Below, in pieces: positions 9,524-58,978 of a stretch of 64,000 bases of DNA (positions are counted from its first letter, which is position 1; every line of letters starts with the position of its first letter). The notes under the pieces were generated by a model. The model was not told the origin of the DNA. It searched no databases and saw only the letters and a program-made list of their open reading frames with translations. The DNA comes from Desulfallas thermosapovorans DSM 6562. GTDB lineage: Bacteria > Bacillota > Desulfotomaculia > Desulfotomaculales > Desulfallaceae. Where the stretch lies: positions 62,001 to 126,000 of the forward strand of contig NZ_VNHM01000001.1 of assembly GCF_008124625.1 (NCBI RefSeq). The letters are read 5' to 3'. Position numbers and translations under genes: made by a program.

Positions 9524-9541
9524 CCACGCATTCCTCCTCGA

Positions 9542-13249: not shown

Positions 13250-13271
13250 AACTTATCCTCCCTTGTATTTT

Positions 13272-13832: not shown

Positions 13833-13852
13833 ACTTATTCCCCCCCACTGTC

Positions 13853-14695: not shown

Positions 14696-14739
14696 GATAA
14701 TCCCCTCCCTCGTTAAGACGGTATATTGACATTAAACAA

Positions 14740-35406: not shown

Positions 35407-37422
35407 TTATTGCAAATAATGTGCCACTAGTTCTGCAATATCCTTAGTTTTTACATTCTCTGCTTGATCATGTTCTTTAAGACCGTCTTCAATCATAGTT
35501 AGGCAGAACGGGCAGTTAACAGCTATCACTTCCGGCTGGGTTTGTAAAGCCTGCTCCGTTCTCATTACGTTAATTCTGTTACCCAGCGTCTCTTCCAGCC
35601 ACATTCTACCGCCGCCTGCACCACAGCAAAATGCCCTGTCTTTATTTCTAGACATTTCTACAAAAGAGGCACCTGGCAACTGTCCTATAATGCTACGAGG
35701 TGCATCGTATTCGCTGTTATAACGTCCAAGGTAGCAGGAATCGTGATAGGTCAGTTTAAATGAGTCACCGGCACCTTGTAAGTTCAACTTTTTATTCGCA
35801 ATTAAGTTATTAATCAACTGAGTATGGTGAATGACTTCGTAATTACCGCCAAAGTTGGGGTATTCATTTTTTAAACTATTGAAACAGTGCGGACAGGCGG
35901 TAATAATTTTCTTAACTCCATATTCGTTGAATACTTCAATATTCTCTTCCACCAGGGATTGATATAAGTATTCGTTACCCAATCTGCGGGCCGAATCACC
36001 ACAACATTTTTCCTCACTGCCTAAGACGGCAAAACTTATACCCGCAGCTTTAAGTATTTTAACCAACGCGGTGGTTACATTTTTAATCCGGTCATCAAAT
36101 GAACCTGCACAGCCTACGAAGAGTAAATACTCAGCATCTTTATTGTCTTCCATGGTAGGCACATCAAGGTCATCAGCCCAATCCCCACGGTTGGACCAAC
36201 CAACACCCCAGGGGTTGTAGTTTCGCTCCATATTGGTAAAAGCCAATTGAGCTTCACTGGGAAATTCACTGCGGTCCAGAACCAAATTGCGTCTCAAGTC
36301 AATGATTTTATTAATATGTTCGTTTAATTGCGGGCAGTGCTCCTGACAAGCATAACATGTAGTACAGGACCAAATGATATCTTCACTGATCACTTCACCG
36401 GCCAGTTCCGGTAAACTGGCTTCATCATTTGTTTCAGCGGCTGCATAGGCTTCTTTCAAATTGCCCGCGGCTTTAGTCTTACGGGGTAAATTATCTTTAA
36501 GAGCAGCTATCAACTTTTTGGGGGATAATGGCTTACCGCTTAGATAAGCCGGGCAGTTATCCTGACAGCGGCCGCACTCGGCACAAGCAAAACAATCCAG
36601 TAGCTGTTTCCAGGTATAGTCGGTAATTTTACTTACCCCGAAATTTTCTTCTTCTTCGTTTTCCAAATCCAAACTTTTAATGGATCCGCCCCGGGGCTGT
36701 AAATTACGCAGATATATATTTATGGGTGCCGCCAGCGGGTGCACCAGATGGGAGTAACGGAAAAAGACCAGCAGCCCAAAAGCCAGAATAACATGCATCC
36801 ACCAAAAGACTTCATATATAACCTGACTACTTGATGGTGACATGCTGCTCCACATCGCTACCAGCATACCGGTTACAGGGGCCAGCACATAACGGTCTGC
36901 GCCGGCAGTTACGGCGTTTGCCCCGCTGGACACGAAATAACTTATAACTAGTAGAACAATTCCGGAAATTAAGCCGACAATAACCCTTTCCTCAGACCAG
37001 TCGCCCACTCCCAGGCGCGGCACTTTGGCAATATATCTACGATAGGCAGATACCAGCATACCAATGATAGCCACTAAACCAAAAACATCGACTAATAAGT
37101 AAAAATATGGATTACTCCCCAGAACCGGAATCATTAAGCCGGGAAACAATCCTTCCAACATTACTACAATTATACCAAGTGAAAAAATCACCAGACCCCA
37201 AAAGATACAAAGGTGCATTAAACCCGCCCCGGGCTCACGCATTAATCTTTTTTGCCCCAGTACTATACTAAGAGCTCCCAATAACCTCTGCCCGGGTTGG
37301 TCAAACCTATTTTCAGGCTTGGCCATAGCCAAAATTTCATACCGTTCTTTTATACCCATACCAAAAGAATACAAGCTATAAAGCAACAACACTATAAAAA
37401 GTAAAATTTTTAAAGTTAACAT
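35407..37422 (-). CDS. Membrane iron-sulfur oxidoreductase, probable ETF:menaquinone oxidoreductase
   Basis: 671 residues. The N-terminal third has about five membrane segments of the NarI/cytochrome b type (for example residues 4-24 and 68-90), with conserved histidines such as LMHLCIFWG and WWMHVILAFG that could hold haem. Then come two ferredoxin-type sites, CAECGRCQDNCP and CTTCYACQEHCP. The C-terminal half is HdrD-like with two CCG motifs, EEKCCGDSARR and AFCCGAGGGRMW. This architecture next to etfAB is the proposed link from acyl-CoA dehydrogenase/ETF to menaquinone in sulfate reducers and syntrophs. ATG 37422 follows GAGGTGA at 8 nt; the frame opens slightly earlier. Confidence 0.9.
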   Translation of the reverse strand: MLTLKILLFIVLLLYSLYSFGMGIKERYEILAMAKPENRFDQPGQRLLGALSIVLGQKRLMREPGAGLMHLCIFWGLVIFSLGIIVVMLEGLFPGLMIPVLGSNPYFYLLVDVFGLVAIIGMLVSAYRRYIAKVPRLGVGDWSEERVIVGLISGIVLLVISYFVSSGANAVTAGADRYVLAPVTGMLVAMWSSMSPSSSQVIYEVFWWMHVILAFGLLVFFRYSHLVHPLAAPINIYLRNLQPRGGSIKSLDLENEEEENFGVSKITDYTWKQLLDCFACAECGRCQDNCPAYLSGKPLSPKKLIAALKDNLPRKTKAAGNLKEAYAAAETNDEASLPELAGEVISEDIIWSCTTCYACQEHCPQLNEHINKIIDLRRNLVLDRSEFPSEAQLAFTNMERNYNPWGVGWSNRGDWADDLDVPTMEDNKDAEYLLFVGCAGSFDDRIKNVTTALVKILKAAGISFAVLGSEEKCCGDSARRLGNEYLYQSLVEENIEVFNEYGVKKIITACPHCFNSLKNEYPNFGGNYEVIHHTQLINNLIANKKLNLQGAGDSFKLTYHDSCYLGRYNSEYDAPRSIIGQLPGASFVEMSRNKDRAFCCGAGGGRMWLEETLGNRINVMRTEQALQTQPEVIAVNCPFCLTMIEDGLKEHDQAENVKTKDIAELVAHYLQ

Positions 37423-39359: not shown

Positions 39360-39786
39360 ACGCTTCCTCCTTTGCTGATTAAGTGTAACTTAATACACCG
39401 GGTCCATTACTTGATTGACCTGGGTTTTGGGATGATGGCAATAGTGCAACTATTCGGAATGCTCGTGAGGGTGTGGTCTGATATCACTAATCAATCACAG
39501 CGGTTGCACACAGATTACAAGTGTAAACTGTAAGATACATGCCATCATTAATTATCATTCGTTATGAAAAATAAAAATCCTTTTTTTCTTCTTAACCGTG
39601 TTATAATATTTAAGAATAATTGCCATCACAATTACTAATAGTTGGCACTTAATTGTGTCCTTTTAGCAAATACATACATAATATAGCAAAATAATTGTTT
39701 CACCAAATGATAGCAATAAGAATGGGCGACTTTGCCGCCCTAAGGGTTACAATACAGCACATTTATTAATATCAAACCAATAACGC
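39360..39786. other. 427-bp intergenic region between acyl-CoA dehydrogenase and etfB
   Basis: No gene is supported. It holds two operator-like repeats near etfB: ATTAAGT-GTA-ACTTAAT (39378-39394) and AATAGT-GCA-ACTATT (39440-39454). A weak hairpin GGGCG...CGCCC (39724-39740) lies after the dehydrogenase stop and may end or attenuate that transcript. Both repeats have a 3-nt centre, which suggests a dimeric repressor at an internal etfB promoter. Confidence 0.5.
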
Positions 39787-40926
39787 CTATTTTAAAATAT
39801 TAGCCGCAATTACTATGCGCTGCACCTCACTGGTACCCTCGTAAATCTCTGTAATTTTAGCATCCCGCATCATGCGCTCCACCGGATACTCCCTGGTATA
39901 ACCATAACCGCCGAAAATCTGTACCGCTTTGGTAGTCACCCACATGGCACATTCCGATGCGTATAATTTAGCCATGGCCGATTCTTTACTATATGGAAGA
40001 CCTTTATCTTTTAGGTAAGCGGCCCTGTATACCAACAGCCTTGCCGCGTCTATCCGGGTAGCCATGTCAGCCATCATCCATTGTAAACCCTGGAAAGAAC
40101 TTAGCGGTTTATTAAACTGTTCGCGTATTTTACTGTATTTAACTGCTTCGTCGAAAGCGCCCTGGGCAATACCCAATGCCTGAGCGGCTATACCTATCCG
40201 GCCGCCGTCGAGAGTCATTAAAGCTATTTTAAAGCCCTTGCCGTCCTCGCCAAGTAAATTTTCCTTGGGAATACGGCAATTCTCAAACACCAGCTCATAT
40301 GTGGAAGAAGCCCTGATGCCCATTTTATGTTCTTTTTTACCAAAGGTAAAGCCAGGTGTACCCTTCTCCACAATAAAAGCTGCTGTTCCTCTACTTCCTT
40401 TTGATTTATCGGTACTGGCGATAACTACATAAATATCAGCCTTTTCGCCGTTGGTAATAAATATCTTGGTTCCGTTTAAAACATACTCGTCGCCATCAAG
40501 CACAGCAGTTGTCTTTACAGAACCGGCATCAGAACCAGCGGAGGGCTCAGTTAAACCCAAGGCTCCGATTTTTTCACCGCTGGCCAGCGGCACCAGATAC
40601 TTTTGTTTCTGCTCCTCCGTACCAAATGCATATATTGGCCATGAACACAACGATGTGTGGGCGGAAACCAACACCCCCGTGGAAGCACATACCCGTGATA
40701 ACTCCTCAACGGCGATGGCATAACAGACATTATCCATTCCCGCACCGCCATATTCCTCAGGGAAAGGTATACCGCTGAGGCCCATCTCGGCCATGTCATC
40801 CCATAGCTTCCAATCATACTCTTCGGCTTCATCCATGGGGCCTGCCTTGGGGGCAACTTCCTTTTCCGCAAAATCCCGTACCGTCTTACGGATCATTTCT
40901 TGTTCTTCACTTAATATAAATTCCAC
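39787..40926 (-). CDS. Acyl-CoA dehydrogenase (short-chain type)
   Basis: 379 residues from GTG 40926, placed by AAAGGAGGAATAGGT. It oxidises acyl-CoA to enoyl-CoA and passes electrons to ETF. Family blocks: [17 protein letters not shown], the FAD segment [26 protein letters not shown], and the catalytic-glutamate region [13 protein letters not shown]. The closest everyday equivalents are butyryl-CoA dehydrogenases; exact chain length is inference. It is the first gene behind the sigma-54 promoter at 41039. Confidence 0.94.
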
Positions 40927-41038
40927 ACCTATTCCTCCTTTTGTGTATGGAGACAAAACTTTATGGGCATAACCAGCTACTACTTATGCGCATACTTGCT
41001 AAGTTTTCACCAAGTTGTCCCCTTTTCAACTATTATCA

Positions 41039-41055
41039 CGCAAGAAACATGCCAA
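41039..41055 (-). promoter_or_regulatory. Sigma-54 (-24/-12) promoter of the acyl-CoA dehydrogenase gene
   Basis: The minus strand reads TTGGCATGTTTCTTGCG: GG and GC are exactly 10 nt apart, with TGGCA and TTGC both matching the consensus. Predicted start point is near 41028. Confidence 0.82.
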
Positions 41056-41366: not shown

Positions 41367-43004
41367 TTATTTTTTAACAGCAGCCCATTCTTTTTCACGC
41401 AATTCAATGCGTCTGATTTTACCACTTATGGTCTTGGGCAGGCTTTCAACGAATTCAATTTTCCGTGGATACTTATAAGGGGCGGTCACTTTTTTAACAT
41501 GATCCTGCAATTCCTTGACCAATTCATCTGAAGCTGTATAACCGGGGGCAAGAATTACGAAAGCTTTAACCACTTCACCGCGAACCTCGTCCGGACTGGA
41601 TACCACAGCCGACTCGGCAACAGCCGGGTGTTCAAGCAGCGCACTTTCCACTTCAAAAGGACCAATCCGGTAACCGGAAGCCAGTATTACGTCATCGGCC
41701 CGACCAACAAACCACAGGTAACCATCCTCATCTTTGATGGCGCGGTCACCGGTTATATACCAATCTCCCCGGTAGGATGACGCAGTTTTATCCGGATTTT
41801 TCCAATATTCTTTAAATAATCCCACTGGCCTTTCAGGTTTAACTTTAACAGCAATGTCGCCTTCTTTACCACGGGGTACTATGTTCCCCTCATCATCAAT
41901 AACTTCCACCACAAAACCCGGACTGGGTTTACCCATGGAACCGGCCCGCACCTCCAGGCAAGGGAAGGATCCTGCTAAACATACGCTCTCAGTTTGCCCG
42001 TAACCGTCTCTGATCTTCAAACCGGTATGCTCTTCCCAGGTATCGATTATTTCCGGGTTCAACGGCTCCCCGGCCGCAACCACATGGCGTAATGACTTAA
42101 AGCTATACTGGGACAGATCCTCCAACACAAACATACGATATGCGGTAGGTGGCCCACACAATGTGGTAACGGGATATTTCTCCAAGTTTCTCAATGTCTT
42201 TTTAACGTCAAATCGCGGGGTATGGTGCACGAATAATGCCGCACCGCAACACCAGGGGCCAAAAAAGCTACTCCACGCTGCTTTGGCCCAACCGGTATCG
42301 GACAGGTTCCAGTGCAAATCATTCGGTGTTAAATCAAGCCAGTACTTACCTGTCACAATATGACCAATCGGATAACTGGCGTGGGTGTGCACAGTCATCT
42401 TGGGATACCCGGTGGTTCCGGAGGTAAAGTATAAAATGGCATTATCATCACTTTTGGTATTGACTGTTTCAAACTGGTCCGAAGCACTGCTTACAGCCTC
42501 TTCATAATTTGTCCAGCCCTCTTTTTTATCACCCACTAAAATAAAACTCTTGACACTGGGGCAATCTGCCCGCACTTCATCTACTTTTGGAGCGTTATCA
42601 GCATCGGTAATGATACAAACCGCTTCGGCGGAATCAAACCGGTATTTCAAATCCTTAGGCGTTAACTGAGTGGTACCGGGACTAATAACGGCACCCATGC
42701 GCAAACAAGCAATGTTTATCTCCCACCATTCAAGCAGTCTGGGCATTATTACCACAACAACATCGCCTTTTTTAACCCCTTGGCTGGCAAGGACATTACA
42801 CAGTTGCCTGGATCTTTGACACAACTGGGCAAAGGTTTTCTTTACTTCATTATCATCATCGTCCACCCACCAAATGGCCAGCTTATCCTTGTCTTCAGCC
42901 CACTTATCCAGTACATCTCTGGCAAAATTATAATATTCAGGAACCTCCCATTTAAATTCCGCATACGTTTTTTCATAGTCCACCATATTATGCGTCTGGC
43001 TCAT
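41367..43004 (-). CDS. AMP-forming acyl-CoA synthetase (acetyl/medium-chain type)
   Basis: 545 residues of the ANL superfamily, close to the medium-chain/AcsM-type ligases. The P-loop is YFTSGTTGYPKM, A5 motif DGYGQTESV, A7/A8 GDWYITGDRAIKDEDGYLWFVGRADDVI, and the A10 lysine is Lys529 in KTISGKIRR. It activates a carboxylic acid with ATP and CoA to acyl-CoA, AMP and pyrophosphate; a short or branched fatty acid is likely from context. Lys529 is the position that AcuA-type enzymes acetylate in AcsA. It has its own sigma-54 promoter at 43095. Confidence 0.9.
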   Translation of the reverse strand: MSQTHNMVDYEKTYAEFKWEVPEYYNFARDVLDKWAEDKDKLAIWWVDDDDNEVKKTFAQLCQRSRQLCNVLASQGVKKGDVVVVIMPRLLEWWEINIACLRMGAVISPGTTQLTPKDLKYRFDSAEAVCIITDADNAPKVDEVRADCPSVKSFILVGDKKEGWTNYEEAVSSASDQFETVNTKSDDNAILYFTSGTTGYPKMTVHTHASYPIGHIVTGKYWLDLTPNDLHWNLSDTGWAKAAWSSFFGPWCCGAALFVHHTPRFDVKKTLRNLEKYPVTTLCGPPTAYRMFVLEDLSQYSFKSLRHVVAAGEPLNPEIIDTWEEHTGLKIRDGYGQTESVCLAGSFPCLEVRAGSMGKPSPGFVVEVIDDEGNIVPRGKEGDIAVKVKPERPVGLFKEYWKNPDKTASSYRGDWYITGDRAIKDEDGYLWFVGRADDVILASGYRIGPFEVESALLEHPAVAESAVVSSPDEVRGEVVKAFVILAPGYTASDELVKELQDHVKKVTAPYKYPRKIEFVESLPKTISGKIRRIELREKEWAAVKK

Positions 43005-43329
43005 AAAATCCCCCTTCTTTGCTATATTAATGTATTTTTCCGATGCCAGAAAAAATGCTGTTTATAATTCTGCATTTTTCTTATTATTTGTTATTGCAAA
43101 AAATTAGCCACTTTTCTGACAAATACTTTTAGTGGCTTATATTTATTGCTTAAAGGCACTCAATGACGCCCAACCGGTTTTATCTATATCATATGGGGTA
43201 AAGCCATCGTCAACAAATAAAGACAGTGCCCGAACATTCAACACACTATGGCACCCACATCACCAGCGCGTGTTTTGACCAGTGTAAACAAGGGTTGATA
43301 TGTTTTAAATACACACACTGCAGCGATAC
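43005..43329. other. 325-bp regulatory region upstream of the acyl-CoA synthetase gene
   Basis: No gene. It holds the sigma-54 promoter at 43095-43110, and an imperfect dyad TTGACCAGTGTAAA (43275-43288), about 175 bp upstream, that resembles the palindrome of the mutase operon at 53962. An inverted repeat AGCCACT/AGTGGCT spans 43106-43136 and overlaps the -24 element. Confidence 0.5.
43095..43110 (-). promoter_or_regulatory. Sigma-54 (-24/-12) promoter of the acyl-CoA synthetase gene
   Basis: The minus strand reads TGGCTAATTTTTTGCA: GG-N10-GC spacing is exact and the -12 element TTGCA is consensus; the -24 element is TGGCTA instead of TGGCAC. Predicted start point is near 43084, 80 nt before the ATG. 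Confidence 0.7.
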
Positions 43330-46724: not shown

Positions 46725-48182
46725 TTACGTTAAATTATATTTTAGCAACTTCTTGTATAAACCCGGTCTAGATATACCCAGTACTTGTGCCGCTTTGGCT
46801 TTATTACCCTTGCTCTCCATTAATGTTTGTAATATCACCAATTTTTCAGCTTGACTCATCACGTCAGCCAAAGTCCGACCATGGGACAGTTTAATGGAAA
46901 ACTCATTAAATTGTTCGTATTCCTGCTTATCCTGGTTAGCCGGTTCATCATTTAACAAATTTATCAAATGATAGGGCAAATGTTCCTTGCGTATAGTATT
47001 ACCTTCCAAAACATTGAAAGCTCGTTCAATAGTATTCTCCAATTCCCGTATATTCCCCGGCCAAGAGTACTTATAAAAAATATTTTCAACTTGAGGCGAT
47101 ACACCTGTCACCGTTAATCCAAATAATTTATTATACTTTGCGATAAAATGACTTACCAAATCTTTGATATCTTCTTTTCTTTCCCTTAGCGGTGGGATAG
47201 CAAGATTAACTACATTTAACCTGTAGAACAAATCTTCACGGAACTTTTTGTATTTTACCATATGGTGTAAGTTTACATTGGTAGCCACAACCACCCTGAC
47301 GTCTGAAACTTTAACCTCTCCGCCACCGAGCTTTTGTATTTCCTTTTCTTGTATAAACCGCAATAACTTTGCCTGCAAAGCAAAGGACAAATCCCCAATC
47401 TCATCAAGAAAAACGGTCCCACCATTGGCCAGTTCCAGTTTTCCCACCTGACCACCTTTTTTCCCGCCTGTAAAAGCCCCATCTTCATAGCCGAAAAATT
47501 CCGACTCCAACAATGTATCGGGAATAGCCGCACAGTTTATTTTTATGAAGGGGCCTGACCTGCGCAAACTGGCGGCATGGACGGCTTGGGCAAAAAGTTC
47601 TTTACCGGTACCGCTTTCGCCGGTGATTAATATGTTTGAGTTACGGGGCGACACCTTTAACAATGTCTCTTTCAAATCCATCATTTGAGGACTGTTACCG
47701 ATAATGCTATCAACAGTATATATAACATTAAAGCCCTTGTGCTTAAAAGAAGGCTTTTTTCTGGTTACTTCCCCATTGCCCGGGAGGCCTTGCTCCGAAC
47801 TTAAAAAAGTCAGCTTGGCCAGCGCACCCCGAACCCGCTGTTTTATAATTATAGGCAGGTAATCCGCAATAAAACTGCGCCCTTCCACACTGGATATTTT
47901 ACCTATCTCTGGTTCTCCTGTTTTCAATATTTTTAAAAGCCTGCGCAGTCCATTATGCCTGCAAACATCAACTAACCTATGACCAATTAAATTATCCGGA
48001 GACGTTTTTAAACTATCAGCCAGCGCACGGTTAACTTGTTGAATCACACCTTTTTCACTAATCACCAATAGTCCTTCGCTACTATTTTCGAAAATTGTAT
48101 TGAGAATTATTTCGGCTGAATACCCGTCACGGACACCGATTTTATTATCCAGCATATCCTTTGTGCTCTCCGGATAAAGCAC
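46725..48182 (-). CDS. Sigma-54-dependent activator with PAS domain (GAFTGG variant)
   Basis: 485 residues. A PAS domain covers about residues 25-125 (ENSSEGLLVISEKGVIQQVNRALAD is its start). AAA+ domain: Walker A TGESGTGKE near 188-195, LDEIGD, and FREDLFYRLNV. The sigma-54 contact loop at 235-240 reads GAFTGG instead of GAFTGA. The C-terminal Fis-type helix-turn-helix is KAKAAQVLGISRPGLYKKLLK. GTG 48182 follows GAGGTGATTT. It sits at the head of the fatty-acid oxidation cluster and probably controls some of the -24/-12 promoters here. Confidence 0.92.
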   Translation of the reverse strand: MLYPESTKDMLDNKIGVRDGYSAEIILNTIFENSSEGLLVISEKGVIQQVNRALADSLKTSPDNLIGHRLVDVCRHNGLRRLLKILKTGEPEIGKISSVEGRSFIADYLPIIIKQRVRGALAKLTFLSSEQGLPGNGEVTRKKPSFKHKGFNVIYTVDSIIGNSPQMMDLKETLLKVSPRNSNILITGESGTGKELFAQAVHAASLRRSGPFIKINCAAIPDTLLESEFFGYEDGAFTGGKKGGQVGKLELANGGTVFLDEIGDLSFALQAKLLRFIQEKEIQKLGGGEVKVSDVRVVVATNVNLHHMVKYKKFREDLFYRLNVVNLAIPPLRERKEDIKDLVSHFIAKYNKLFGLTVTGVSPQVENIFYKYSWPGNIRELENTIERAFNVLEGNTIRKEHLPYHLINLLNDEPANQDKQEYEQFNEFSIKLSHGRTLADVMSQAEKLVILQTLMESKGNKAKAAQVLGISRPGLYKKLLKYNLT

Positions 48183-49749: not shown

Positions 49750-50376
49750 TTATATCCTGGCAATTCTTTTCAATTCCCAAAGAGCCAGTCCCGGTAGTAA
49801 AGCGTAATCTTCAGTATGCAGGTGGCTGGATGCCGATGCGTCAAACAAAACATTACCGGAAGGAGGAAACTCATCATCTCCCTCCCATAATACAAAGGTA
49901 ACAGGTATCTTAGGCAATACGGGCACTGTAACAGCTACATCTCCAATGTCTTCCTTCCAACCGCCCAGCAACAGCGCCGCCTCAACCAGTTTTTCGCTTT
50001 TATCGCCAAATACAGCCACCAATGGTTTTACGGCCCGGTTAGTAAAGGGGCCAACATAAATTGAGCCGCTGGGTAATTCTTTAAATGAAACCTTGACATT
50101 TTCCACAGCCCGGGGACTGCAGTGGGTGAGATAATGTAATAGTATCACCTTATAATCAATTTTTACTTCTTCCCCTTTTACATCCTTCTCAACACAGTAT
50201 TCCACGTCACCCCCGGGATAGTATACACGATAATTATTACCTAAAAACGGTACCGTAAAGTAAGAGCCGGACCGGTCGAAGTCAACCGCTGCATTATTGG
50301 CCATTGCCTCGGGAACAGCCCGGGCAAACTCCTCCACAGCCTTGGCATGGGCAGGCTTTAAATTTATCAATGCCAT
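49750..50376 (-). CDS. DUF3786 domain protein
   Basis: 208 residues matching the DUF3786 family found in anaerobes, often near corrinoid or CO-dehydrogenase genes. Recognisable segments: VPFLGNNYRVYYPGGDVEY, ILLHYLTHCSPRAVE, VLWEGDDEFPPSGNVLFDASASSHLHTEDY (read as a block ending in the conserved H-x-E-D). Function is unknown. It is apparently in one unit with the NUDIX gene. Confidence 0.8.
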   Translation of the reverse strand: MALINLKPAHAKAVEEFARAVPEAMANNAAVDFDRSGSYFTVPFLGNNYRVYYPGGDVEYCVEKDVKGEEVKIDYKVILLHYLTHCSPRAVENVKVSFKELPSGSIYVGPFTNRAVKPLVAVFGDKSEKLVEAALLLGGWKEDIGDVAVTVPVLPKIPVTFVLWEGDDEFPPSGNVLFDASASSHLHTEDYALLPGLALWELKRIARI

Positions 50377-50607
50377 GAAAAACCAATAACCTCCTTCATC
50401 TATCTTTCATTTCAAAATTAGACACTTTAATGAATCCAATGTCATCAATAAGTATTTTACCATAAAAAAAACAGCTATTATTTTTTTCGGTAGAGTTTCA
50501 GTAAATATGAACACTGGTTTTTATTTTGACGAGCAAGGATTTTTTTCAAATTCAGAGAATTATAATACTGGATTTACAATAATATCGCTGTCAGGAGTGT
50601 AATAACA

Positions 50608-51585
50608 GTGCTTCGCATAGGCATACCCAGCGCTATGTTTTACTATATATACTACCCCATGTGGAAGACATTCTTTGAAGAACTGGGTGTTCAGGTGGTA
50701 ACCTCCGGCAAAACTACCCGTCAGCTATTAGATAACGGCGTGCGCGAAGCGCTCGCCGATGCTTGTGTACCCGTGAAAGTATATTTCGGCCACGCAATGG
50801 CTTTAGCCAACCGTGTGGATTACCTGTTTATCCCACGTATCGTTTGTTTAAATAAAAAAACCGTTTACTGCCCCAAATTTTTGGGATTACCTGATATGAT
50901 CCGTTATGGCATTGCCAATATGCCACCCATCATAGATGTACGCATAGACGCCCGGGACCGGAAAGACAGTATACTTTCAGCATATTATAAAGTTGGAAAA
51001 ATGCTTGGTAAAACACCAATGCACATTACCAAAGCTTTACTAAAAGCCCGCATGGTGCAATTTAAGTTTGATGGTTTGCTACACAGAGGATTACAACCCC
51101 TTGAAGCAATGGATACTATATTTAACGGTAAAAAAGGATACACGCCAGGTAATAAAAAACAGTTAAAATTTGCTGTTGTAGGCTATCCTTACATTATTCA
51201 TGACCAGTACATCAGCATAGGTATAGCAAATAAACTGCAAAAAATGGGCATTGATGTAGTCACATCGGATAATCTATCGCCGTTAACTTTGCGTTTGCAA
51301 CGACACGAACCGGCCAAACAATTGTTTTGGACATTCAGCGAGCGTACTTTGCGGGCAACCCGTTATTATGCCCGGCAAAAAGATATTGATGGTATAATAC
51401 ATTTGACAGCTTTCGGGTGTGGGCCGGACTCCATAGTAGACAGATTTATTCAGTTGGATAACTACTCAAGCTCTATACCGTTTATGAGCTTGACCATTGA
51501 TGAGCACAGCGGTGAGGCCGGGGTTAATACCAGGTTGGAAGCATTTGTTGATATGGTCAGAAGAAAAAAAGGAGCGTATTCATAA
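50608..51585 (+). CDS. Acyl-CoA dehydratase activase-related protein (DUF2229)
   Basis: 325 residues. LRIGIPSAMFYYIYYPMWK, then SGKTTRQLLDNGVREALADACVPVKVYFGH, then FIPRIVCLNKKTVYCPKF identify the DUF2229 family related to 2-hydroxyacyl-CoA dehydratase components. Cysteines in DACVP, IVCL and VYCPKF could ligate iron-sulfur. The C-terminus FMSLTIDEHSGEAGVNTRLEAFVDM is shared with the next protein. GTG 50608 follows AGGAGTG. It overlaps the next gene by one base (TAATG). Confidence 0.85.
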   Translation: MLRIGIPSAMFYYIYYPMWKTFFEELGVQVVTSGKTTRQLLDNGVREALADACVPVKVYFGHAMALANRVDYLFIPRIVCLNKKTVYCPKFLGLPDMIRYGIANMPPIIDVRIDARDRKDSILSAYYKVGKMLGKTPMHITKALLKARMVQFKFDGLLHRGLQPLEAMDTIFNGKKGYTPGNKKQLKFAVVGYPYIIHDQYISIGIANKLQKMGIDVVTSDNLSPLTLRLQRHEPAKQLFWTFSERTLRATRYYARQKDIDGIIHLTAFGCGPDSIVDRFIQLDNYSSSIPFMSLTIDEHSGEAGVNTRLEAFVDMVRRKKGAYS

Positions 51586-52703
51586 TGCGTAAGGTAACCT
51601 TTCCCCATATGGGTGAGTCTTATCGTGCTTTTAAAATGCTATTAAATGATTTGGGCAATGAAGTGATACTCCCCCCCAGACCCAGCCGTAAGACATTAAA
51701 CCTGGGGGTTCAATATACCCCTGAATTCGCATGTTTTCCCTTAAAAATATTAACGGGTACATACCTGGAAACCATCGAAAAGGGAGCCAATGTTTTAGTC
51801 ACTTCCGGGGGGGTTGGACCCTGCCGGGCAGGTCTTTATGCCAGTTTACACAAGAAGATATTGCATGATCTGGGACACTCTGTAGAGATGATTGTTTTTG
51901 AACCGCCCCGTTTATATCCCATTAATTTCATCCGTAATGTATATAAATTAAACCCCGCCAGGCTATCCATCAAAGCTATTATTGATCGAATCAAGAAAGG
52001 CTGGCGTCTATTACAAGCCTTGGATAATGTGGAAAAGACAACACATGTGGTAAGACCACGGGAGATAAAAAAAGGTGCCACGACACAAAAATACAAACAG
52101 GCACTGGAATGGTTAAATAAAGCTTCTACCACCAAAGAAATCATTGAGGCTGAAGCGACAGCCCTTGAGGAACTGCATAAGATACCCCAAGATCACCAGC
52201 GATTAATTCTGAAAGTTGGCATTGTGGGTGAGATATACGTGCTGCTGGAACCTGCCGCCAATCTGGAGATCGAAGAAACACTGGGCAATCTAGGGGTTGA
52301 AGTGGAGCGTTCTATGTTTTTAACGGGCTGGACCAGGGACAATACCTGGAAGGAAACCACCGAGGGCATGACCGTAAAAGACGCTGCCCAGCATTACCTG
52401 CCGGAATTAATTGGCGGGCACGGCAGAGACTCCATCGGGCACACGGTATTATATGCCAAGCGTAACTTTGACGGTGTGATCCAGTTGGCCCCTTTCACCT
52501 GTATTCCTGAAATAGTGGCCCGCACCATATTACCTGCCGTTAGCAAGGACTATAACATACCTGTACTTACATTTTTCCTTGATGAGCAGACCGGCAAGGC
52601 AGGGATGAACACCCGCCTGGAAGCTTTTGTGGATTTGATGAAACGCAAAAAATTAAAAAATATGAGCCAAGCCAAATTGCAGCTTACTTCCGGAGCTATT
52701 TAA
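51585..52703 (+). CDS. Acyl-CoA dehydratase activase-related protein (second subunit)
   Basis: 372 residues related to the previous protein: FPHMGESYRAFKMLLNDLG, YTPEFACFPLKILTGTY, SGGVGPCRAGLYASLHK, and the C-terminal FFLDEQTGKAGMNTRLEAFVDLMK, which parallels its neighbour's end. Cysteines lie in FACFP, VGPCRAG and APFTCIPE. In many anaerobes the equivalents are one long fused protein; here they are split. Role in activating a radical dehydratase is inference. Confidence 0.84.
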   Translation: MRKVTFPHMGESYRAFKMLLNDLGNEVILPPRPSRKTLNLGVQYTPEFACFPLKILTGTYLETIEKGANVLVTSGGVGPCRAGLYASLHKKILHDLGHSVEMIVFEPPRLYPINFIRNVYKLNPARLSIKAIIDRIKKGWRLLQALDNVEKTTHVVRPREIKKGATTQKYKQALEWLNKASTTKEIIEAEATALEELHKIPQDHQRLILKVGIVGEIYVLLEPAANLEIEETLGNLGVEVERSMFLTGWTRDNTWKETTEGMTVKDAAQHYLPELIGGHGRDSIGHTVLYAKRNFDGVIQLAPFTCIPEIVARTILPAVSKDYNIPVLTFFLDEQTGKAGMNTRLEAFVDLMKRKKLKNMSQAKLQLTSGAI

Positions 52704-52738
52704 TCTAGCGCCATTTTCAATTGGCAAGGAGTGACTTT

Positions 52739-53719
52739 ATGCAAGCATATTTGGGGATAGACGTAGGTTCTGTCAGCACAAACCTTGTAGTACAAGATTT
52801 GGCCGGAAATGTAATTACCGGCCTTTATTTACGAACCAGGGGACGCCCGGTGGAAACTATACAAAACGGCTTACAACAATTAGCCAAAACAATACCCAAG
52901 CAAACACAGATTTGTGGTGTAGGGACAACGGGTAGCGGACGTTACCTGGCCGGGGTAATGGTTGGCGCAGATGTCATTAAAAATGAGATTACCGCCCATG
53001 CTGTAGCAGCCTCCCATTTTATTCCCCAGGTGCATACAGTTCTTGAAATAGGCGGGCAGGATTCGAAGATAATAATAATAAAAGATGGCATTGTCACCGA
53101 CTTCGCAATGAATACGGTATGTGCCGCCGGTACCGGTTCCTTTTTGGATCAACAAGCCGCCCGGTTGGGCATACCCATTACTGAATTCGGCGATCTGGCC
53201 TTACAATCCCGCAATCCGGTACGTATAGCCGGGCGCTGTACGGTGTTCGCCGAATCGGACATGATTCATAAACAGCAAATGGGCCATCCCGTACAAGACA
53301 TTATTAATGGTTTATGCGAAGCACTGGTGCGTAATTACCTGAACAATATCGGCAAAGGTAAAGAAATTTTGGCCCCGGTTGTTTTCCAAGGCGGTGTAGC
53401 CGCTAATGCCGGTATAAAGGCAGCCTTTGAAAGAGCTTTGGGCATGGAAATAACAGTCCCCCCCCATTACGATATAATGGGCGCCATCGGCGCGGCACTG
53501 CTGGCCAAGGAGGAACTGACACATACCAAAAAAACCACCGGCTTCAAAGGTTTTTCCATTGCCGGGTTAACCTATCGCACCGGCAGTTTTGAATGTGACG
53601 GCTGTCCCAATAATTGTGAGATTGCAGAAATTTACGAAGAAAACCGCGTTATTGGCCGCTGGGGGGCCAGATGTCCAAAATGGGATATTATTCAGGAGGA
53701 TTCACGTGACAGAGCATGA
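52739..53719 (+). CDS. Acyl-CoA dehydratase activase (BadF/BadG/BcrA/HgdC family)
   Basis: 326 residues from ATG 52739, set by AAGGAG 8 nt upstream. ASKHA ATPase: YLGIDVGSVSTNLV, VCGVGTTGSGRYLAG-like phosphate loop, EIGGQDSKIII, and NTVCAAGTGSFLDQQA with the cluster cysteine; the second cluster cysteine is in IAGRCTVFAESD. These enzymes drive an electron uphill to a dehydratase or reductase with ATP. A C-terminal extension carries four more cysteines (FECDGCPNNCE and ARCPKW), not needed in HgdC. No HgdAB-type dehydratase is nearby. Confidence 0.9.
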   Translation: MQAYLGIDVGSVSTNLVVQDLAGNVITGLYLRTRGRPVETIQNGLQQLAKTIPKQTQICGVGTTGSGRYLAGVMVGADVIKNEITAHAVAASHFIPQVHTVLEIGGQDSKIIIIKDGIVTDFAMNTVCAAGTGSFLDQQAARLGIPITEFGDLALQSRNPVRIAGRCTVFAESDMIHKQQMGHPVQDIINGLCEALVRNYLNNIGKGKEILAPVVFQGGVAANAGIKAAFERALGMEITVPPHYDIMGAIGAALLAKEELTHTKKTTGFKGFSIAGLTYRTGSFECDGCPNNCEIAEIYEENRVIGRWGARCPKWDIIQEDSRDRA

Positions 53720-53915
53720 ATTAAAAATACTGGCAGTTTTTTTCAACTCGGTGATCATTATTATAATGCTTGTTTCCGGCCTCTGGGTGGGTATCGATGC
53801 TCGCAAAACAGGTCGTCCCCTGGCGGAATCAATCATATGGGGTATTTTTGCCGGTTGGATGTTGGTTATAGGCCCGATTTTTTATTATTTTTTTAAAAAT
53901 AAGTTTTATAAATAA
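53706..53915 (+). CDS. Small two-helix membrane protein of unknown function
   Basis: 69 residues from GTG 53706, which follows AGGAGGATTCAC inside the end of the activase gene (14-bp overlap). Two membrane segments: about 8-26 (ILAVFFNSVIIIIMLVSGL) and 42-62, with a short charged loop between them containing GIDARKTGRP. The overlap suggests coupled translation and a job connected with the activase set. No family recognised. Confidence 0.7.
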   Translation: MTEHELKILAVFFNSVIIIIMLVSGLWVGIDARKTGRPLAESIIWGIFAGWMLVIGPIFYYFFKNKFYK

Positions 53916-53918
53916 GAC

Positions 53919-53942
53919 CGCCGGTAACCGGCGTTTTTTTTT
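53919..53942 (+). terminator. Terminator of the activase operon
   Basis: CGCCGG/CCGGCG stem with a TAA loop, followed by nine T. Confidence 0.85.
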
Positions 53943-53961
53943 GTACCCATCTGCATTGTTG

Positions 53962-53981
53962 TCGTTGACAGGTGTCAACGA
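53962..53981. promoter_or_regulatory. 20-bp palindrome, candidate enhancer of the mutase operon
   Basis: TCGTTGACA-GG-TGTCAACGA is perfectly symmetric apart from the central GG. It lies about 110 bp upstream of the -12 element at 54089 and after the activase terminator, which fits an upstream activator sequence. Confidence 0.65.
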
Positions 53982-54075
53982 TCATCTACAAACAATTATT
54001 ATTTTCTGAAATAACAAAACATTAATATTTCACGTTAGAACCTCAGGAAACAAAAAAACAAAAATTAAGAAAAAA

Positions 54076-54091
54076 TGGCATACCTTTTGCT
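54076..54091 (+). promoter_or_regulatory. Sigma-54 (-24/-12) promoter of the cobO-meaB-mutase operon
   Basis: TGGCATACCTTTTGCT: GG and GC separated by exactly 10 nt; TGGCA and TTGCT match the consensus. Predicted start point is near 54102, about 42 nt before cobO. Confidence 0.82.
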
Positions 54092-54143
54092 ACTGATATA
54101 TCAAAAGCATATGTTTATTAGGTGCAGGGAGGGAGGTGGCCCC

Positions 54144-54683
54144 ATGTCCCGACCCCGGTTAAACCAGGGTTTGGTGCAGGTATATACAGGAAACGGCAAA
54201 GGCAAAACAACGGCGTCCCTGGGCCTGGCGCTAAGGGCTATTGGTCACGGTTATAAGGTATTCATGCTGCAATTTATGAAAGGCAGCAAAGATTATGGTG
54301 AGATTCAAGCCGCAGAAAAATATTTGCCAAATTTGATTATTGTGCAAAGTGGCTTAGAAACATTTGTCAGCAAAGAAAACCCATCCCGGGCAGACATTGA
54401 TTTGGCCAGGCAGGGTCTAGAAACAGCTCGAAAAGTTATCAGCGAAGGACATTATGATCTGGTTATCCTGGATGAAATCAATACCGCCTTGGACTTTAAT
54501 TTAATTGAACTGGATGATGTACTGGATATCATTAAATCCAAGCCGCGCCATGTGGAATTGGTTTTGACGGGAAGATACGTGCCCCAAAAAATAACGGAAG
54601 TAGCCGACCTGGTCAGTGAAGTTAACCTGATCAAACACCCTTATTACCATGGGGTTGCAGCCAGAGAAGGCATTGAATATTGA
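54144..54683 (+). CDS. cobO: Cob(I)alamin adenosyltransferase (CobO/BtuR type)
   Basis: 179 residues from ATG 54144, which follows GGGAGGGAGGTGG; a longer frame from 54075 would overlap the promoter. P-loop GNGKGKTTASLGLALRAIGHG, FMKGSKDYGE, and LVILDEINTALDF mark the family. It makes adenosylcobalamin, the cofactor of the mutase encoded downstream, so cofactor supply and enzyme are in one operon. Confidence 0.94.
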   Translation: MSRPRLNQGLVQVYTGNGKGKTTASLGLALRAIGHGYKVFMLQFMKGSKDYGEIQAAEKYLPNLIIVQSGLETFVSKENPSRADIDLARQGLETARKVISEGHYDLVILDEINTALDFNLIELDDVLDIIKSKPRHVELVLTGRYVPQKITEVADLVSEVNLIKHPYYHGVAAREGIEY

Positions 54684-54706
54684 TCGCATAGGCGGGTGAG
54701 GAAAGT

Positions 54707-55654
54707 ATGTTGGAAGTTAGTAAACTGATACAGGGGGATAAGCGAACAGCAGCCAAAATTATTACCTTAATTGAAAATAATGGTGCAGGTAAACAAGAAT
54801 TGTTAAGCCAACTATACCCGCACACAGGTCGGGCTCATGTTATCGGTATCACGGGCTCACCAGGTGCGGGCAAAAGTTCTTTAACTGATGAACTCATTAA
54901 ACAGGCACGCCAAAGCGGTCATAAAGTAGGCGTGGTTGCCGTTGATCCCACGTCGCCAATATCCGGTGGCGCACTCTTGGGTGATCGCATTCGCATGCAG
55001 GAACATGCCCTGGATAAAGATGTTTTTATTCGCAGTATGGGTACCAGGGGTTGTTTGGGTGGTCTGGCAAGGGCCACCAAGGACGTAGTCAAGGTACTGG
55101 ACGCTTACGGATGCCGCATTATTATTATAGAAACTGTTGGTGTCGGCCAAAGTGAACTTGATATCATGCATTATGCCGATACCACCCTGGTGGTGCTTAC
55201 CCCCGGAGCGGGGGACCATATTCAAACCATCAAGGCCGGGATCATGGAAATCGCGGATATTTTTGTAATTAACAAATCAGACTTGGGAAATACCAAAAAA
55301 ATTGTTACCGACATTGAACAAATGCTGGACATGAGCCCAAGATTCCAAACGGGATGGCGACCGCCGGTGGTGGAAACAAGCGTAATAAACCAGCAAGGTA
55401 TCGCTGAACTTTGGTCAGTAATCAACAACCACCTGCAGTATACCGGCGACAGTGGTGAATTGCAAGAAGCAGTGCGTAAAAGATTGAGCATGGAATTGAT
55501 GGAACTTGTGGAAGAGGATTTACGCAACAGATTATGGGATTACTTTCATAAAAGCGAAGGAACCAGCGACCTTATTCACTTAATGGCAAAACGCAAGACG
55601 GATCCCTACACCGAAGCCCAAAAGTTTTTGAATAACTTTTTAAAGGAGCGTTGA
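54707..55654 (+). CDS. meaB: MeaB/ArgK-type GTPase chaperone of a B12 mutase
   Basis: 315 residues of the G3E GTPase family. P-loop GSPGAGKSSLTDELI, VDPTSPISGGALLGDRIRM, FIRSMGTRGCLGGLA, ETVGVGQSELDI and the base-recognition NKSD. It gates delivery of adenosylcobalamin to a mutase and protects it from inactivation. It lies 4 bp before the mutase large subunit, so it most likely serves that enzyme; the methylmalonyl-CoA operon has no meaB of its own. Confidence 0.95.
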   Translation: MLEVSKLIQGDKRTAAKIITLIENNGAGKQELLSQLYPHTGRAHVIGITGSPGAGKSSLTDELIKQARQSGHKVGVVAVDPTSPISGGALLGDRIRMQEHALDKDVFIRSMGTRGCLGGLARATKDVVKVLDAYGCRIIIIETVGVGQSELDIMHYADTTLVVLTPGAGDHIQTIKAGIMEIADIFVINKSDLGNTKKIVTDIEQMLDMSPRFQTGWRPPVVETSVINQQGIAELWSVINNHLQYTGDSGELQEAVRKRLSMELMELVEEDLRNRLWDYFHKSEGTSDLIHLMAKRKTDPYTEAQKFLNNFLKER

Positions 55655-55658
55655 ATAA

Positions 55659-57308
55659 ATGGAAGAAATTAAAGCCGCCAAAAATGAATGGTTGGCGGAA
55701 AGAGGCAAAAAAAAGGACCGGGACATTAATTTTGAAACCGTATCCGGCATGCCGGTCCAGGATTTATATACTCCGGATGACATCAAAGATTTCGATTATA
55801 TGAATGATTTGGGTTTCCCCGGTAGTTATCCTTACACCAGGGGTGTGCAGAGTAATATGTACCGTGGTCGCCTGTGGACCATGCGCCAGTTCGCCGGGTT
55901 TGCCACAGCCGAGGAATCCAACCAGCGTTATAAATACCTCCTGGAAAAAGGGCAAACAGGTTTAAGTGTAGCCTTTGATATGCCCACCATCATGGGCTAC
56001 GACAGCGATCACCCCCGCTCCCTGGGTGAAGTAGGCAGGGTGGGTGTGGCCATAGATAGTTTGGAGGACATGGAGACCCTGTTCCGGGATATTCCCCTGG
56101 ATAAAGTTAGTACATCCATGACCACCAACGCACCGGCTGCCGTCCTTTGGTGCCTTTATATAGCCACCGGGGAAAAACAAGGTGTGCCTTCGGAAAAATT
56201 GACAGGCACCATCCAGAACGATATCTTGAAGGAATACATTGCCCAAAAGTCATGGATATTCCCACCGGAACCATCCATGCGCCTGATCACCAATATATTT
56301 GAGTATGCTGCTAAACATGTACCCAAATGGAATACTGTAAGTATCAGCGGCTACCATATTCGGGAGGCTGGTTCCACCGCTGTACAGGAATTGGCATTTA
56401 CCCTGGCAGACGGTTTCGCCTATGTAGAGGCCGGTATTGAGGCAGGCCTTAATGTGGATGACTTTGCTCCCAGGCTGTCGTTCTTCTTTAATTCCCATAT
56501 TGACTTTTTCGAAGAGATTGCCAAATATCGCGCGGCCCGGCGCATTTGGGCCCGGCGCATGAAAGAAAAATACGGGGCCAAAAATCCCAAATCTTTATTG
56601 CTACGGTTCCATACCCAAACTGCCGGCTGCAGTTTGACAGCCCAGCAACCTGAAAACAATATCGTTCGCACTGCGTACGAAGCCATGGCGGCAGTACTGG
56701 GAGGCACCCAGTCACTCCATACCAACTCCATGGATGAGGTACTTGCTTTACCAACGGAAAAAGCAGTGCAAATTGCGTTACGAACTCAACAAATCCTGGC
56801 TTATGAAACAGGCGTGGCCAATGTTATCGATCCGCTGGCAGGTTCGTATTATGTTGAGGCGTTAACAAATAAAATGGAAGAGGAAGCTGAAAAGTACTTC
56901 GAGGAAATTGAACGCCGCGGCGGCGTTTTGGCAGCCATTGATCAGAACTTCTTCCAGCAGGAGATTGCCGATGCCGCTTATCAGTACCAGCGGGCTATCG
57001 ACAAAAAGCAGCGTATCCAAGTTGGCGTTAACGAATTTATAGATCCTGACGAAGAACTGGATATTGAAATACTTACCATTGATCCGGAAATTGAGCGCAG
57101 GCAGGTACAAAAGGTACAAAAACTGCGCCGCGAACGTAACAACTTGCTGGTTAGCGACAAGCTTGATGCGTTGCGCCAGGCTGCCATGGGTACAGAAAAT
57201 ATGATTCCATATATACTTGATTGCGTACGGGCTTACGCCACTGAAGGTGAAATTATACAGACACTGCGCGAGGTATTCGGAGAATATAAGGAAAAACCAA
57301 CTTTTTAA
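55659..57308 (+). CDS. icmA: Probable isobutyryl-CoA mutase, large subunit
   Basis: 549 residues of the acyl-CoA mutase large-subunit family. It resembles the methylmalonyl-CoA mutase at 9542 over the whole length, but the two residues that hold the substrate carboxylate differ. Tyr89 of the Propionibacterium enzyme is Phe78 here (MRQFAGF), and Arg207 is Gln196 (EYIAQKSW). The 118-residue spacing between them is the same in both enzymes, and this Phe/Gln pair is the signature of isobutyryl-CoA mutase (Phe80/Gln198). The expected reaction is isobutyryl-CoA to butyryl-CoA. Other blocks are intact: [36 protein letters not shown]. An automatic annotation would call it methylmalonyl-CoA mutase. 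Pivalyl-CoA mutase is another possibility. Confidence 0.82.
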
Positions 57309-57334
57309 GTTTTCGATCAAGGGAGGTAAAACCA

Positions 57335-57736
57335 ATGGCGAAAAAAATCAGGGTGCTGGTGGCCAAACCCGGTCTAGACGGTCATGACCGGGGTGCCCGG
57401 GTGATAGCCCGTGCATTAAGGGATGCCGGCATGGAAGTGGTATATACCGGCTTACACCAAACACCGGAACAGATAGTGGAAGCAGCCATCCAGGAAGATG
57501 TGGATATCGTTGGCCTGTCCATTTTAAGTGGTGCTCATATGACACTGTTCCCCAGAGTTTGCGAACTGCTTAAGGAAAACGGTGCGGATGATATCATTGT
57601 CATGGGTGGCGGCACCATTCCCGAAGCCGATGTCAAGGCCCTTAAAGAAGGCGGCTATGCAGCAGAAATATTCACGCCGGGAACAACTATAGAAACCATT
57701 GTAGAATGGATTCACTCCAACACAAAGTCAAGTTAA
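57335..57736 (+). CDS. icmB: Acyl-CoA mutase small (B12-binding) subunit, partner of the probable isobutyryl-CoA mutase
   Basis: 133 residues. Cobalamin motif DGHDRG near residue 19, LSILSGAHM and [14 protein letters not shown]. It is very similar to the small subunit at 9122 but comes from the separate operon. It supplies the cobalamin-binding half of the enzyme. It lies 26 bp after the large subunit, with GGGAGG before the ATG, and is followed by a hairpin. Confidence 0.9.
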
Positions 57737-57746
57737 TAAATATCTT

Positions 57747-57770
57747 ATCGCCCGGGTTACCCCGGGCGAT
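57747..57770 (+). terminator. Hairpin at the end of the mutase operon
   Basis: Perfect 10-bp GC-rich stem ATCGCCCGGG/CCCGGGCGAT with loop TTAC; the following T tract is short (TGCTTTG). Confidence 0.72.
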
Positions 57771-57805
57771 TGCTTTGAAAAGCACTTGTCAAGCGATGGG
57801 ATATT

Positions 57806-58978
57806 TTAACAATTACAACCGCTACCGCTAAATTGGCTAAGGTCTCTTCCCTTAACATCCCTTAAACATTGTAGCGCAAATTCCACCTCTTCAAGCTTAT
57901 TAAAATAAGAAAAACTAAACCTTACAAGCTTGGTTTCCAAGGTACCCAACGTACGATGTGCATCAGGGGCACAGTGCAGGCCGGCCCGGCAGGCGATATT
58001 ATACCAGTGGTCCAGGGCACCGCCCACAGCCCCGGTATCCTTACCCTGTAGTTGAAAAGATATTACCGGTGCCCGGTGGTTACCGTCCAATGGCCCAAAT
58101 ATTTTTATTCCCGGTATCCGCCGGGCACCTTCGATAAACCTTTTGGCCAGTGCCAGCTCATGCTCCAATATCTTGGACGTTCCAATACGGCGTACGAAAT
58201 TTACCCCGGCACCAAGCCCGGCAATCCCCACTGAATTTAATGTGCCGCTTTCGTACTTTTCGGGCAAAATATCGGGCTGCCCCGCCACTATTGATTTACT
58301 ACCCGTACCCCCCTCACGCCATGGCCTCACCTTTGCCCGTTCACCCACATAAAGTATTCCGGTACCGGGCGGTCCCATTAGCCCCTTATGCCCTGGTGCG
58401 GCCAGCAAGTCAACATTCATCTTTTCCACGTCTATGTCCAGTAAACCGGCGGTTTGTGCCGCATCCAATATAAATATAATACCGGCCGAACGGGCCAATT
58501 CCCCAACTTCCTTGACAGGCATCACGGTACCGGTTACATTTGAAGCATGGGTTAAAACAATAACCCTGGTATTGGCCCGGATGGCCTTTTTTATATCGCC
58601 CGGGTCAAGGGTACCATCCTCTGCACACTGCACCTTGGTTACCTCAATTCTTTCCCGCAAACCGTAAAGTGGCCTGGTCACCGAGTTATGCTCCATGGAA
58701 CTGGTGATCACATGGTCACCAGCATTTAACGACCCTTTAATAGCCATGTTTAATGCATCTGTGGCATTTAAGGTGAAAATCACCCTATCGCTATCCTTTA
58801 TGTTAAATAATGCTGCTATTGATTTCCTGGCTTCATCTACTATTTTACCTGCCGCCAGCGACATTTTGTGCCCGGACCGGCCCGGGTTGGCCCCTACCTC
58901 CTCTAAACAGCGGCGCATTGCTTCCATCACCTCGGGCGGTTTGGGCCATGTAGTGGCAGCGTTATCGAAATAAATCAT
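57806..58978 (-). CDS. Cysteine desulfurase family protein
   Basis: 390 residues, class V aminotransferase fold. YFDNAATTWPKPPEV, SMEHNSVTRPLYGL, the cofactor Asp in FILDAAQTAGLLDIDV, the PLP lysine in APGHKGLMGP, and the sulfur-carrier-type cysteine in CRAGLHCAPDAH. It removes sulfur (or selenium) from cysteine-type substrates. The C-terminal SGSGCNC tail is typical of one subgroup. ATG 58978 has better spacing from GGGAGG than ATG 58981. No iscU or sufU is adjacent, so the sulfur acceptor is unknown. Confidence 0.88.
   Translation of the reverse strand: MIYFDNAATTWPKPPEVMEAMRRCLEEVGANPGRSGHKMSLAAGKIVDEARKSIAALFNIKDSDRVIFTLNATDALNMAIKGSLNAGDHVITSSMEHNSVTRPLYGLRERIEVTKVQCAEDGTLDPGDIKKAIRANTRVIVLTHASNVTGTVMPVKEVGELARSAGIIFILDAAQTAGLLDIDVEKMNVDLLAAPGHKGLMGPPGTGILYVGERAKVRPWREGGTGSKSIVAGQPDILPEKYESGTLNSVGIAGLGAGVNFVRRIGTSKILEHELALAKRFIEGARRIPGIKIFGPLDGNHRAPVISFQLQGKDTGAVGGALDHWYNIACRAGLHCAPDAHRTLGTLETKLVRFSFSYFNKLEEVEFALQCLRDVKGRDLSQFSGSGCNC

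Follow-up and report, generated by a model that had tools for sequence, protein, structure and literature searches.

The window, as we call the whole stretch of 64,000 nucleotides analysed here, carries on its forward strand a four-gene unit that begins with cobO, encoding an ATP:cob(I)alamin adenosyltransferase (54144-54683), and continues with meaB, encoding a mutase-associated GTPase chaperone (54707-55654), icmA, encoding the large subunit of an acyl-CoA mutase of the isobutyryl-CoA mutase type (55659-57308), and icmB, encoding the B12-binding small subunit (57335-57736). Protein matches identified cobO, meaB and icmB, and icmA was typed by Phe, Ala and Gln at the discriminating positions. 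A G+C-rich inverted repeat after icmB (57748-57769) is the likely end of the unit, and on the other side an intrinsic terminator of the upstream gene (53919-53942, forward strand, with a stem at 53919-53933 and then a T tail) separates the cobO unit from badF and a small ORF. The ORF list starts cobO at an in-frame ATG at 54075, which overlaps the promoter element described below. We consider this start unlikely and favour 54144, because the ribosome-binding site is invariant in seven aligned upstream regions and the proteins of relatives start in a similar way (MSRPRL or close).

In icmA, the motifs RQFAGF and YIAQKSW stand where mitochondrial methylmalonyl-CoA mutase has RQYAGF and FMVRNT, and we take Phe and Gln, in place of the Tyr and Arg of methylmalonyl-CoA mutase, to mark an isobutyryl-CoA mutase. 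At the positions that are Ile/Asp in the solved 2-hydroxyisobutyryl-CoA mutase, icmA has Phe/Ala, and from these residues we judge that it is unlikely to encode a 2-hydroxyisobutyryl-CoA mutase. Against the NCBIfam model of the fused enzyme IcmF, the window mutase scores 352 of 1500 bits, which is below the cut-off, and the separate large and B12-binding small subunits found together with MeaB and an adenosyltransferase are the arrangement by which we recognise an isobutyryl-CoA mutase. The other mutase of the window (9542-11233) sits in a propionate cluster and reads RQYAGF and YVARGTY, that is, Tyr/Arg. As read from its sequence, the operon probably lets this anaerobe use isobutyrate, which would be both substrate and signal.

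The operon has the same four functions as a cobO-meaB-isobutyryl-CoA mutase cluster in Syntrophothermus lipocalidus TGB-C1, which was proposed to serve isobutyrate isomerisation and whose mutase is described as a relative of a sulfate-reducer group (PMC5017805); the main text of that paper does not contain the word "sigma". It is also like the acetone-induced B12 mutase clusters of Desulfotomaculum arcticum and D. geothermicum (PMC8084838), which belong to close relatives and hold a related two-subunit B12 mutase, but those clusters include a TDP enzyme and have a proposed 2-hydroxyisobutyryl-CoA mutase, with I/D where the window mutase has F/A.

The -24/-12 element before cobO

The initial annotation had placed a sigma-54 site with exact GG-N10-GC spacing before cobO, and the site is present there: TGGCATACCTTTTGCT lies at 54076-54091 on the forward strand, with GG at 54077-54078 and GC at 54089-54090, and 52 nt separate its end from the cobO ATG at 54144. 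The sigma-54 -24/-12 consensus is TGGCAY-N5-TTGCW, and TGGCATACCTTTTGCT agrees with both this consensus and the GG-N10-GC spacing, with a predicted transcription start near 54102. Exact matches to TGGCAYN5TTGCW number 25 in the 2.96-Mb genome versus 2 for the reversed control, so that chance would account for about 1 exact match in 12, and three of the 25 fall in the window (14739-14754, 35411-35426 and 54076-54091). The loose pattern (at most two mismatches) stays at chance level, with 72 matches in the window and 72.35 expected. The genome has one match for rpoN and 16 for sigma-54 AAA+ activators, 12 of which are strong. A promoter scan gave no sigma-70-like match between the upstream terminator and cobO, and the TTGACA of the palindrome described below was not among its matches as a sigma-70 promoter. 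At 50000-58000, neither a cobalamin riboswitch nor any other known RNA was found at the gathering threshold.

As relatives we used the best 80 of 501 loci related to the mutase, and the cobO start could be placed in 64 of them, which with the window gives 65. The weights of the -24/-12 score were set by hand from the consensus, and the cut-offs, all picked after the first scores had been inspected, differed with the use (17.5 for the display of family cobO genes, 19 for the locus counts and 18.5 for the regions around outgroup activators). At 25-260 bases before cobO, a span of 235 bases, 14 of the 65 loci score at least 19, versus 0.5 expected. They are the window, Desulfoscipio L048, Desulfallas L049, Desulfotruncus L050 and L051, the Peptococcaceae MAGs L053 and L055, five Desulfosporosinus loci (L087, L088, L090, L092 and L103) out of nine in which cobO could be placed, a Desulfitobacterium MAG (L081) and a MAG labelled Actinobacteria (L068). 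The other 51 loci, Desulfosporosinus L095, L097, L098 and L102 among them, have no site scoring at least 19 before cobO; in some promoter-less loci the operon starts with another gene, and in others sigma-54 control may be absent. An alignment of seven upstream regions left 18 invariant columns, nine in the -24/-12 site, eight in the ribosome-binding site and one elsewhere.

The family genomes give a second view of the same site. Operon-type cobO, which we define by at least 80% identity, occurs in 10 of 16 family genomes, and the comparison of ten genomes with six was made on this cobO type. The presence of badF does not track it, because badF, which precedes the small ORF, is matched at 78% or more in 15 of the 16. 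A promoter scoring at least 19.5 precedes operon-type cobO in 9/10 genomes, at -64 to -105, and the general form of the upstream element described below (at most one mismatch) is found in 10/10. Among the other family cobO copies, of which 20 of 24 were examined (30 of 34 family cobO matches overall), the score is at least 19 in one of the 20, at least 18 in two and at least 17.5 in four, and the element is found in none. The family-genome and locus counts overlap, with several close-relative loci (L048-L055) coming from the same genomes. The motif is thus both over-represented in the genome and found at the same place in orthologues, and we are very confident, as far as DNA comparison allows, that TGGCATACCTTTTGCT is a sigma-54 promoter. 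Sigma-54 control of cobO, meaB and the mutase, as the initial annotation had proposed, is well supported by this conservation, by motif enrichment, by the presence of rpoN and activators and by the lack of a sigma-70-like match in the promoter scan.

In G004 (L054), a long T run about 60 bp before cobO replaces the -12 GC while the element is kept; the promoter may have been lost naturally, or the assembly may be at fault. In G010, a genome without icm-type cobO, a cobO copy of 59% identity (L141) has an exact -24/-12 site, TGGCATGAACGTTGCT, and an adjoining activator gene.

The palindrome and the overlapping TGT-N12-ACA element

A 20-bp palindrome had also been reported upstream of the promoter, and we found it in that place: TCGTTGACA-GG-TGTCAACGA is perfect over 53962-53981. 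Perfect inverted repeats with arms of at least 9 and a spacer of at most 2 number three in the window versus 0.85 expected from a Markov model, and are thus no great rarity. In nine relatives, the arms that are perfect about the palindrome's centre measure 5, 5, 4, 4, 4, 3, 3, 0 and 0 bases (9 bp here), and the inner 3-5 bp per arm is the most that is kept in seven of the nine. The core TTGACANNTGTCAA has a single exact place in 2.96 Mb, and the proposal to look for the palindrome elsewhere in the genome led to no second exact core and no enrichment at up to one mismatch (6 places versus 9 for the control). With arms that shrink to 0-5 bp in 9/9 relatives and a core that is not enriched, we rejected the perfect palindrome as the conserved unit.

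What is conserved before cobO is the asymmetric element TGTCAACGATCATCTACAA (TGT-N12-ACA; 53973-53991 on the forward strand, core 53973-53990), which overlaps the right half of the palindrome and lies about 85 bp upstream of the promoter. The case for function therefore comes from conservation of this overlapping element and not from symmetry. The first description of an enhancer-like site holds as far as appearance goes, but what is conserved is the asymmetric TGTCWAC-N7-WACA and not the perfect palindrome. The form common to relatives is TGTCWACGATCnnnWACAA, and the general form is TGTMWAC-N7-WACA. TGTCAACGATCATCTACAA is identical in G014, the variants TGTCTACGATCAGCTACAA, TGTCAACGATCACTTACAA, TGTCTACGATCATCAACAA and TGTCAATGATCGTAAACAA occur in other relatives and TGTCAACTAYMTGATACA in G001 and G004, and the asymmetric extension GATC-N4-ACAA is kept in 7/9 relatives.

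The sole exact match to TGTCWACGATCNNNNACAA in its own genome is 53973-53991, and at up to two mismatches there are 3 matches versus 7 for the control. Across the 16 family genomes, up to one mismatch gives 13 matches versus 3 for the control; all seven perfect copies lie before operon-type cobO, as does one of the six one-mismatch copies, with the other five elsewhere. In the 450 bases before cobO, TGTCWAC-N7-WACA with at most one mismatch has 22 matches versus 1.4 expected, a count taken on both strands that comes from 14 of the 65 loci and compares with 0 for the reversed pattern. In four of the five Desulfosporosinus loci with a promoter, copies of the element face each other. The distance between element and promoter runs from 40 to 365 bp among close relatives, and such variation fits an enhancer. 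Of the 99 -24/-12 sites that score at least 19 across the window and the 80 loci, 22 carry the element upstream at a distance of 40-420 bp, as against 5 with a copy downstream; the minimum spacing of 40 bp was our own choice. The counts before cobO in the 65 loci overstate the significance of the pattern because the pattern was derived from the same loci. Partly independent tests are the family-genome matches, the other cobO copies and the acyl-CoA synthetase promoters described below. Judged by this conservation, it is highly likely that TGT-N12-ACA is the enhancer.

Between enhancer and promoter, L050 has a CATTGCGAG-type repeat that looks like a small mobile repeat, and L051 has a similar one.

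Candidate activators and rival explanations

Our candidate for the activator is encoded elsewhere in the genome (G000:C5:122676-124436; locus L247:16673-18436) and has two PAS domains, an AAA+ domain and a Fis-type HTH. Orthologues of this C5 activator (63-80%) are present in all nine other family genomes with operon-type cobO, and none was found in the six family genomes without it, where the best match is 47-48% (another group) or nothing at E<=1e-120. The ten C5-type activators form one clade with 100/100 support. As statistics this phyletic match is weak, because genomes without operon-type cobO have fewer activators generally (8-18 activator matches per genome versus 15-50 in those with it), and it was drawn from about a dozen activator groups in play. 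An acyl-CoA synthetase gene about 9 kb from the C5 activator has a TGGCACAATTTTTGCA site with TGTCAACACCAGTGTACA 114 bp upstream, and the -24/-12 site and the element precede this gene in 3/3 regions that hold it (G000, G013 and G014), a link seen in a single genus, with the gene absent from 7/10 fetched family regions.

Outside the family, 11 genomes have C5 activator matches of 50-60%, and in their loci a promoter scoring at least 19 precedes cobO only in L068, with promoter-element pairs elsewhere in L064 and L073. Of ten further outgroup regions around a C5-type activator, one has such a pair (L308, before a SatP-like gene). Desulfosporosinus carries the element, yet the activator near icm there (L090:15399-17132) resembles another group more closely. 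Weighing these genomes outside the family lowered our estimate for the C5 protein from an even chance to a little under it, and we propose this PAS-PAS-AAA+-Fis protein only tentatively, from its family distribution, as the activator of the operon.

A SatP-like carboxylate transporter gene lies near a C5-type activator in L284, L285, L287, L288 and L308, with TGT-N12-ACA-like elements upstream; in the first four loci one G is missing from its -24 element, and in L308 the score is 19.0. In G006-G009, where such a transporter lies beside the candidate activator, TGT-N12-ACA elements are present but the -24 elements are one G short.

The activator nearest to the operon is EBP2, a PAS-AAA+-Fis sigma-54 activator encoded at 46725-48182 on the reverse strand, and it could instead be the protein that binds the element and activates the operon. 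EBP2 is syntenic with the operon in several family loci, its orthologues of at least 70% occur in 8/10 family genomes with operon-type cobO and 0/6 others, and G004, where the -12 element is degraded, has no EBP2 on the locus contig either. However, G013 retains the promoter and the element without EBP2 at the locus (best match 47%), which makes EBP2 a doubtful partner and weakens it as the sole activator, and upstream of EBP2's neighbour gene there are GTTAAC repeats and no element match at up to one mismatch, so EBP2 is in our view an unlikely activator, if the nearest. Slightly less probable again is that the operon answers to another activator of the same genome: the C2 protein L032, the C20 group or the TyrR-type L040. 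L032 is the nearest to the Desulfosporosinus activator near icm (53%), but for the element-bearing genomes G001, G004 and G005 no orthologue is among the matches listed, and four genomes without operon-type cobO do have one, which disfavours an L032-type activator on phyletic grounds. TyrR boxes also have the form TGT-N12-ACA, and L040 has an HTH_50 domain; its best matches in other family genomes are 44-50% among those listed, and with no close match listed in the 15 other family genomes L040 is disfavoured too. For the C20 group, G004 has none among the matches listed, and the G013 protein falls outside the clade.

Two further explanations set aside either the enhancer or the promoter. The palindrome might be the operator of an ordinary dimeric regulator unrelated to sigma-54, for example of the CRP/FNR kind (TTGAC-N4-GTCAA), whose sites its half-sites resemble, and its two-fold symmetry is perfect in the window. 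The symmetric half-sites are not conserved, however: the arms measure 0-5 bp in 9/9 relatives while the asymmetric extension is kept in seven, the core is not enriched in the genome, and the distance from the element of this region to the promoter varies by hundreds of bases, all of which makes an operator of this kind improbable. It is also conceivable that the -24/-12 site is a chance match and that a housekeeping sigma factor, or read-through, accounts for transcription of cobO. About 2 of the 25 exact genome matches are expected by chance, but the position of the promoter is conserved across several genera, and a terminator stands upstream of cobO without a sigma-70-like match in between, so that we give this explanation very little weight.

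The locus of G013 (L204) is syntenic except that it lacks both EBP2 and the acyl-CoA dehydrogenase gene next to it, which suggests that the two belong together.

Other -24/-12 sites and a possible isobutyrate regulon

In the explanation that we prefer, cobO-meaB-icmA-icmB would be transcribed from the sigma-54 promoter at 54076-54091, starting near 54102, and an AAA+ enhancer-binding protein at TGTCAACGATCATCTACAA, about 85 bp upstream, would bind there and activate transcription by DNA looping. The C5 activator would probably sense a short branched fatty acid or its CoA ester and would probably turn on the acyl-CoA synthetase as well, and acid activation, cofactor synthesis, chaperone and mutase would thus rise together. 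The promoter element, the conserved upstream element, their linkage to the operon and the candidate's phyletic match in the family are what we see in the DNA, and on these we consider the explanation by sigma-54, enhancer and activator as a whole to be likely.

Sigma-54 regulons of Clostridiales have been described by comparative prediction, and control of fermentation and amino-acid catabolism is known (Nie et al. 2019, PMC6615313). The operon is like those regulons in having a -24/-12 promoter and a putative activator-specific upstream site before a catabolic operon. Unlike them, it has no counterpart among the 39 activator groups in Table 1 of that paper, compared by listed target and not by activator sequence, and the paper's text has the word "mutase" once only, within a domain name. 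None of the matches listed from the open-access literature reports an isobutyryl-CoA mutase operon under sigma-54 control, in keeping with the initial annotation, which had called such control undescribed. Searches of this literature for an isobutyryl-CoA mutase with sigma-54 in Desulfotomaculum and for isobutyrate together with an enhancer-binding protein and a mutase gave none, and one paper (PMC7324539) mentions isobutyryl-CoA mutase and sigma-54 in separate table rows. The operon would therefore be a new target, and possibly define a new activator group, of a known sigma-54 mechanism.

A wider reading, to which we give rather less than an even chance, is that an isobutyrate regulon is conserved across Desulfallaceae, Desulfosporosinus and related lineages, in which PAS-AAA+-Fis activators would recognise the TGT-N12-ACA enhancer and jointly switch on acyl-CoA synthetase, thiolase/dehydrogenase, transporter and a B12 mutase with its own adenosyltransferase and chaperone. 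If so, maturation of coenzyme B12 would be under substrate control and not under a cobalamin riboswitch, and a cofactor-maturation gene would be under a catabolic sigma-54 switch. The anaerobic breakdown of protein includes isobutyrate turnover as one of its steps, and a mechanism that switches on the mutase was not found in print among the matches listed from the open-access literature. With the conserved promoter and enhancer word as a signature, uncultured sulfate reducers and syntrophs could also be searched for operons that use isobutyrate.

Outside the window, Desulfosporosinus L090 has four promoters with the element, before cobO, a transporter, a thiolase and one without an ORF assigned; in L064 the element precedes genes for an acyl-CoA synthetase and a thiolase that lie next to an activator gene, and L056 and L060 have it at a thiolase gene upstream of the mutase, where all of these gene names are our own reading of the sequences. 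Within the window, the enhancer motif at up to one mismatch has five matches, including the operon's own, versus about three expected, so the matches beyond the operon are only suggestive. A one-mismatch enhancer-like element lies 124 bp upstream of the -24/-12-like site TGGCATGTTTCTTGCG (41039-41054, reverse strand), which precedes an acyl-CoA dehydrogenase (39787-40956) that is a possible second target. Weaker -24/-12-like sites on the reverse strand, each with a TGT-N12-ACA-like match nearby, lie at 43095-43110, before an MbcS-like acyl-CoA ligase, and at 39529-39544, before etfB; the ligase, at 41367-43004, is nearest MbcS and falls below the model cut-off (594 of 850 bits).

The mutase operon is no lone case, as the window has further exact -24/-12 sites before the propionate operon and before a thiolase. 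TGGCACAAATATTGCT, at 14739-14754 on the reverse strand, precedes the fumarase-led propionate (mmc) operon (4599-14659), a cluster described for Desulfotomaculum gibsoniae (PMC4148979). It is adjoined by a gene for a PAS sigma-54 activator (14944-16638, reverse strand), which we saw in the window and did not take from that paper. This cluster differs from the cobO operon in that its mutase has Y/R at the discriminating positions and no TGT-N12-ACA element was found before fumarase at up to two mismatches. The exact site at 35411-35426 (reverse strand) is some 163 nt ahead of thiolase-hbd-crt, where an HdrD-like ORF has its 3' end. Elsewhere in the genome, an 11.6-kb contig (G000:C28) holds four exact -24/-12 sites together with a response-regulator-type activator.
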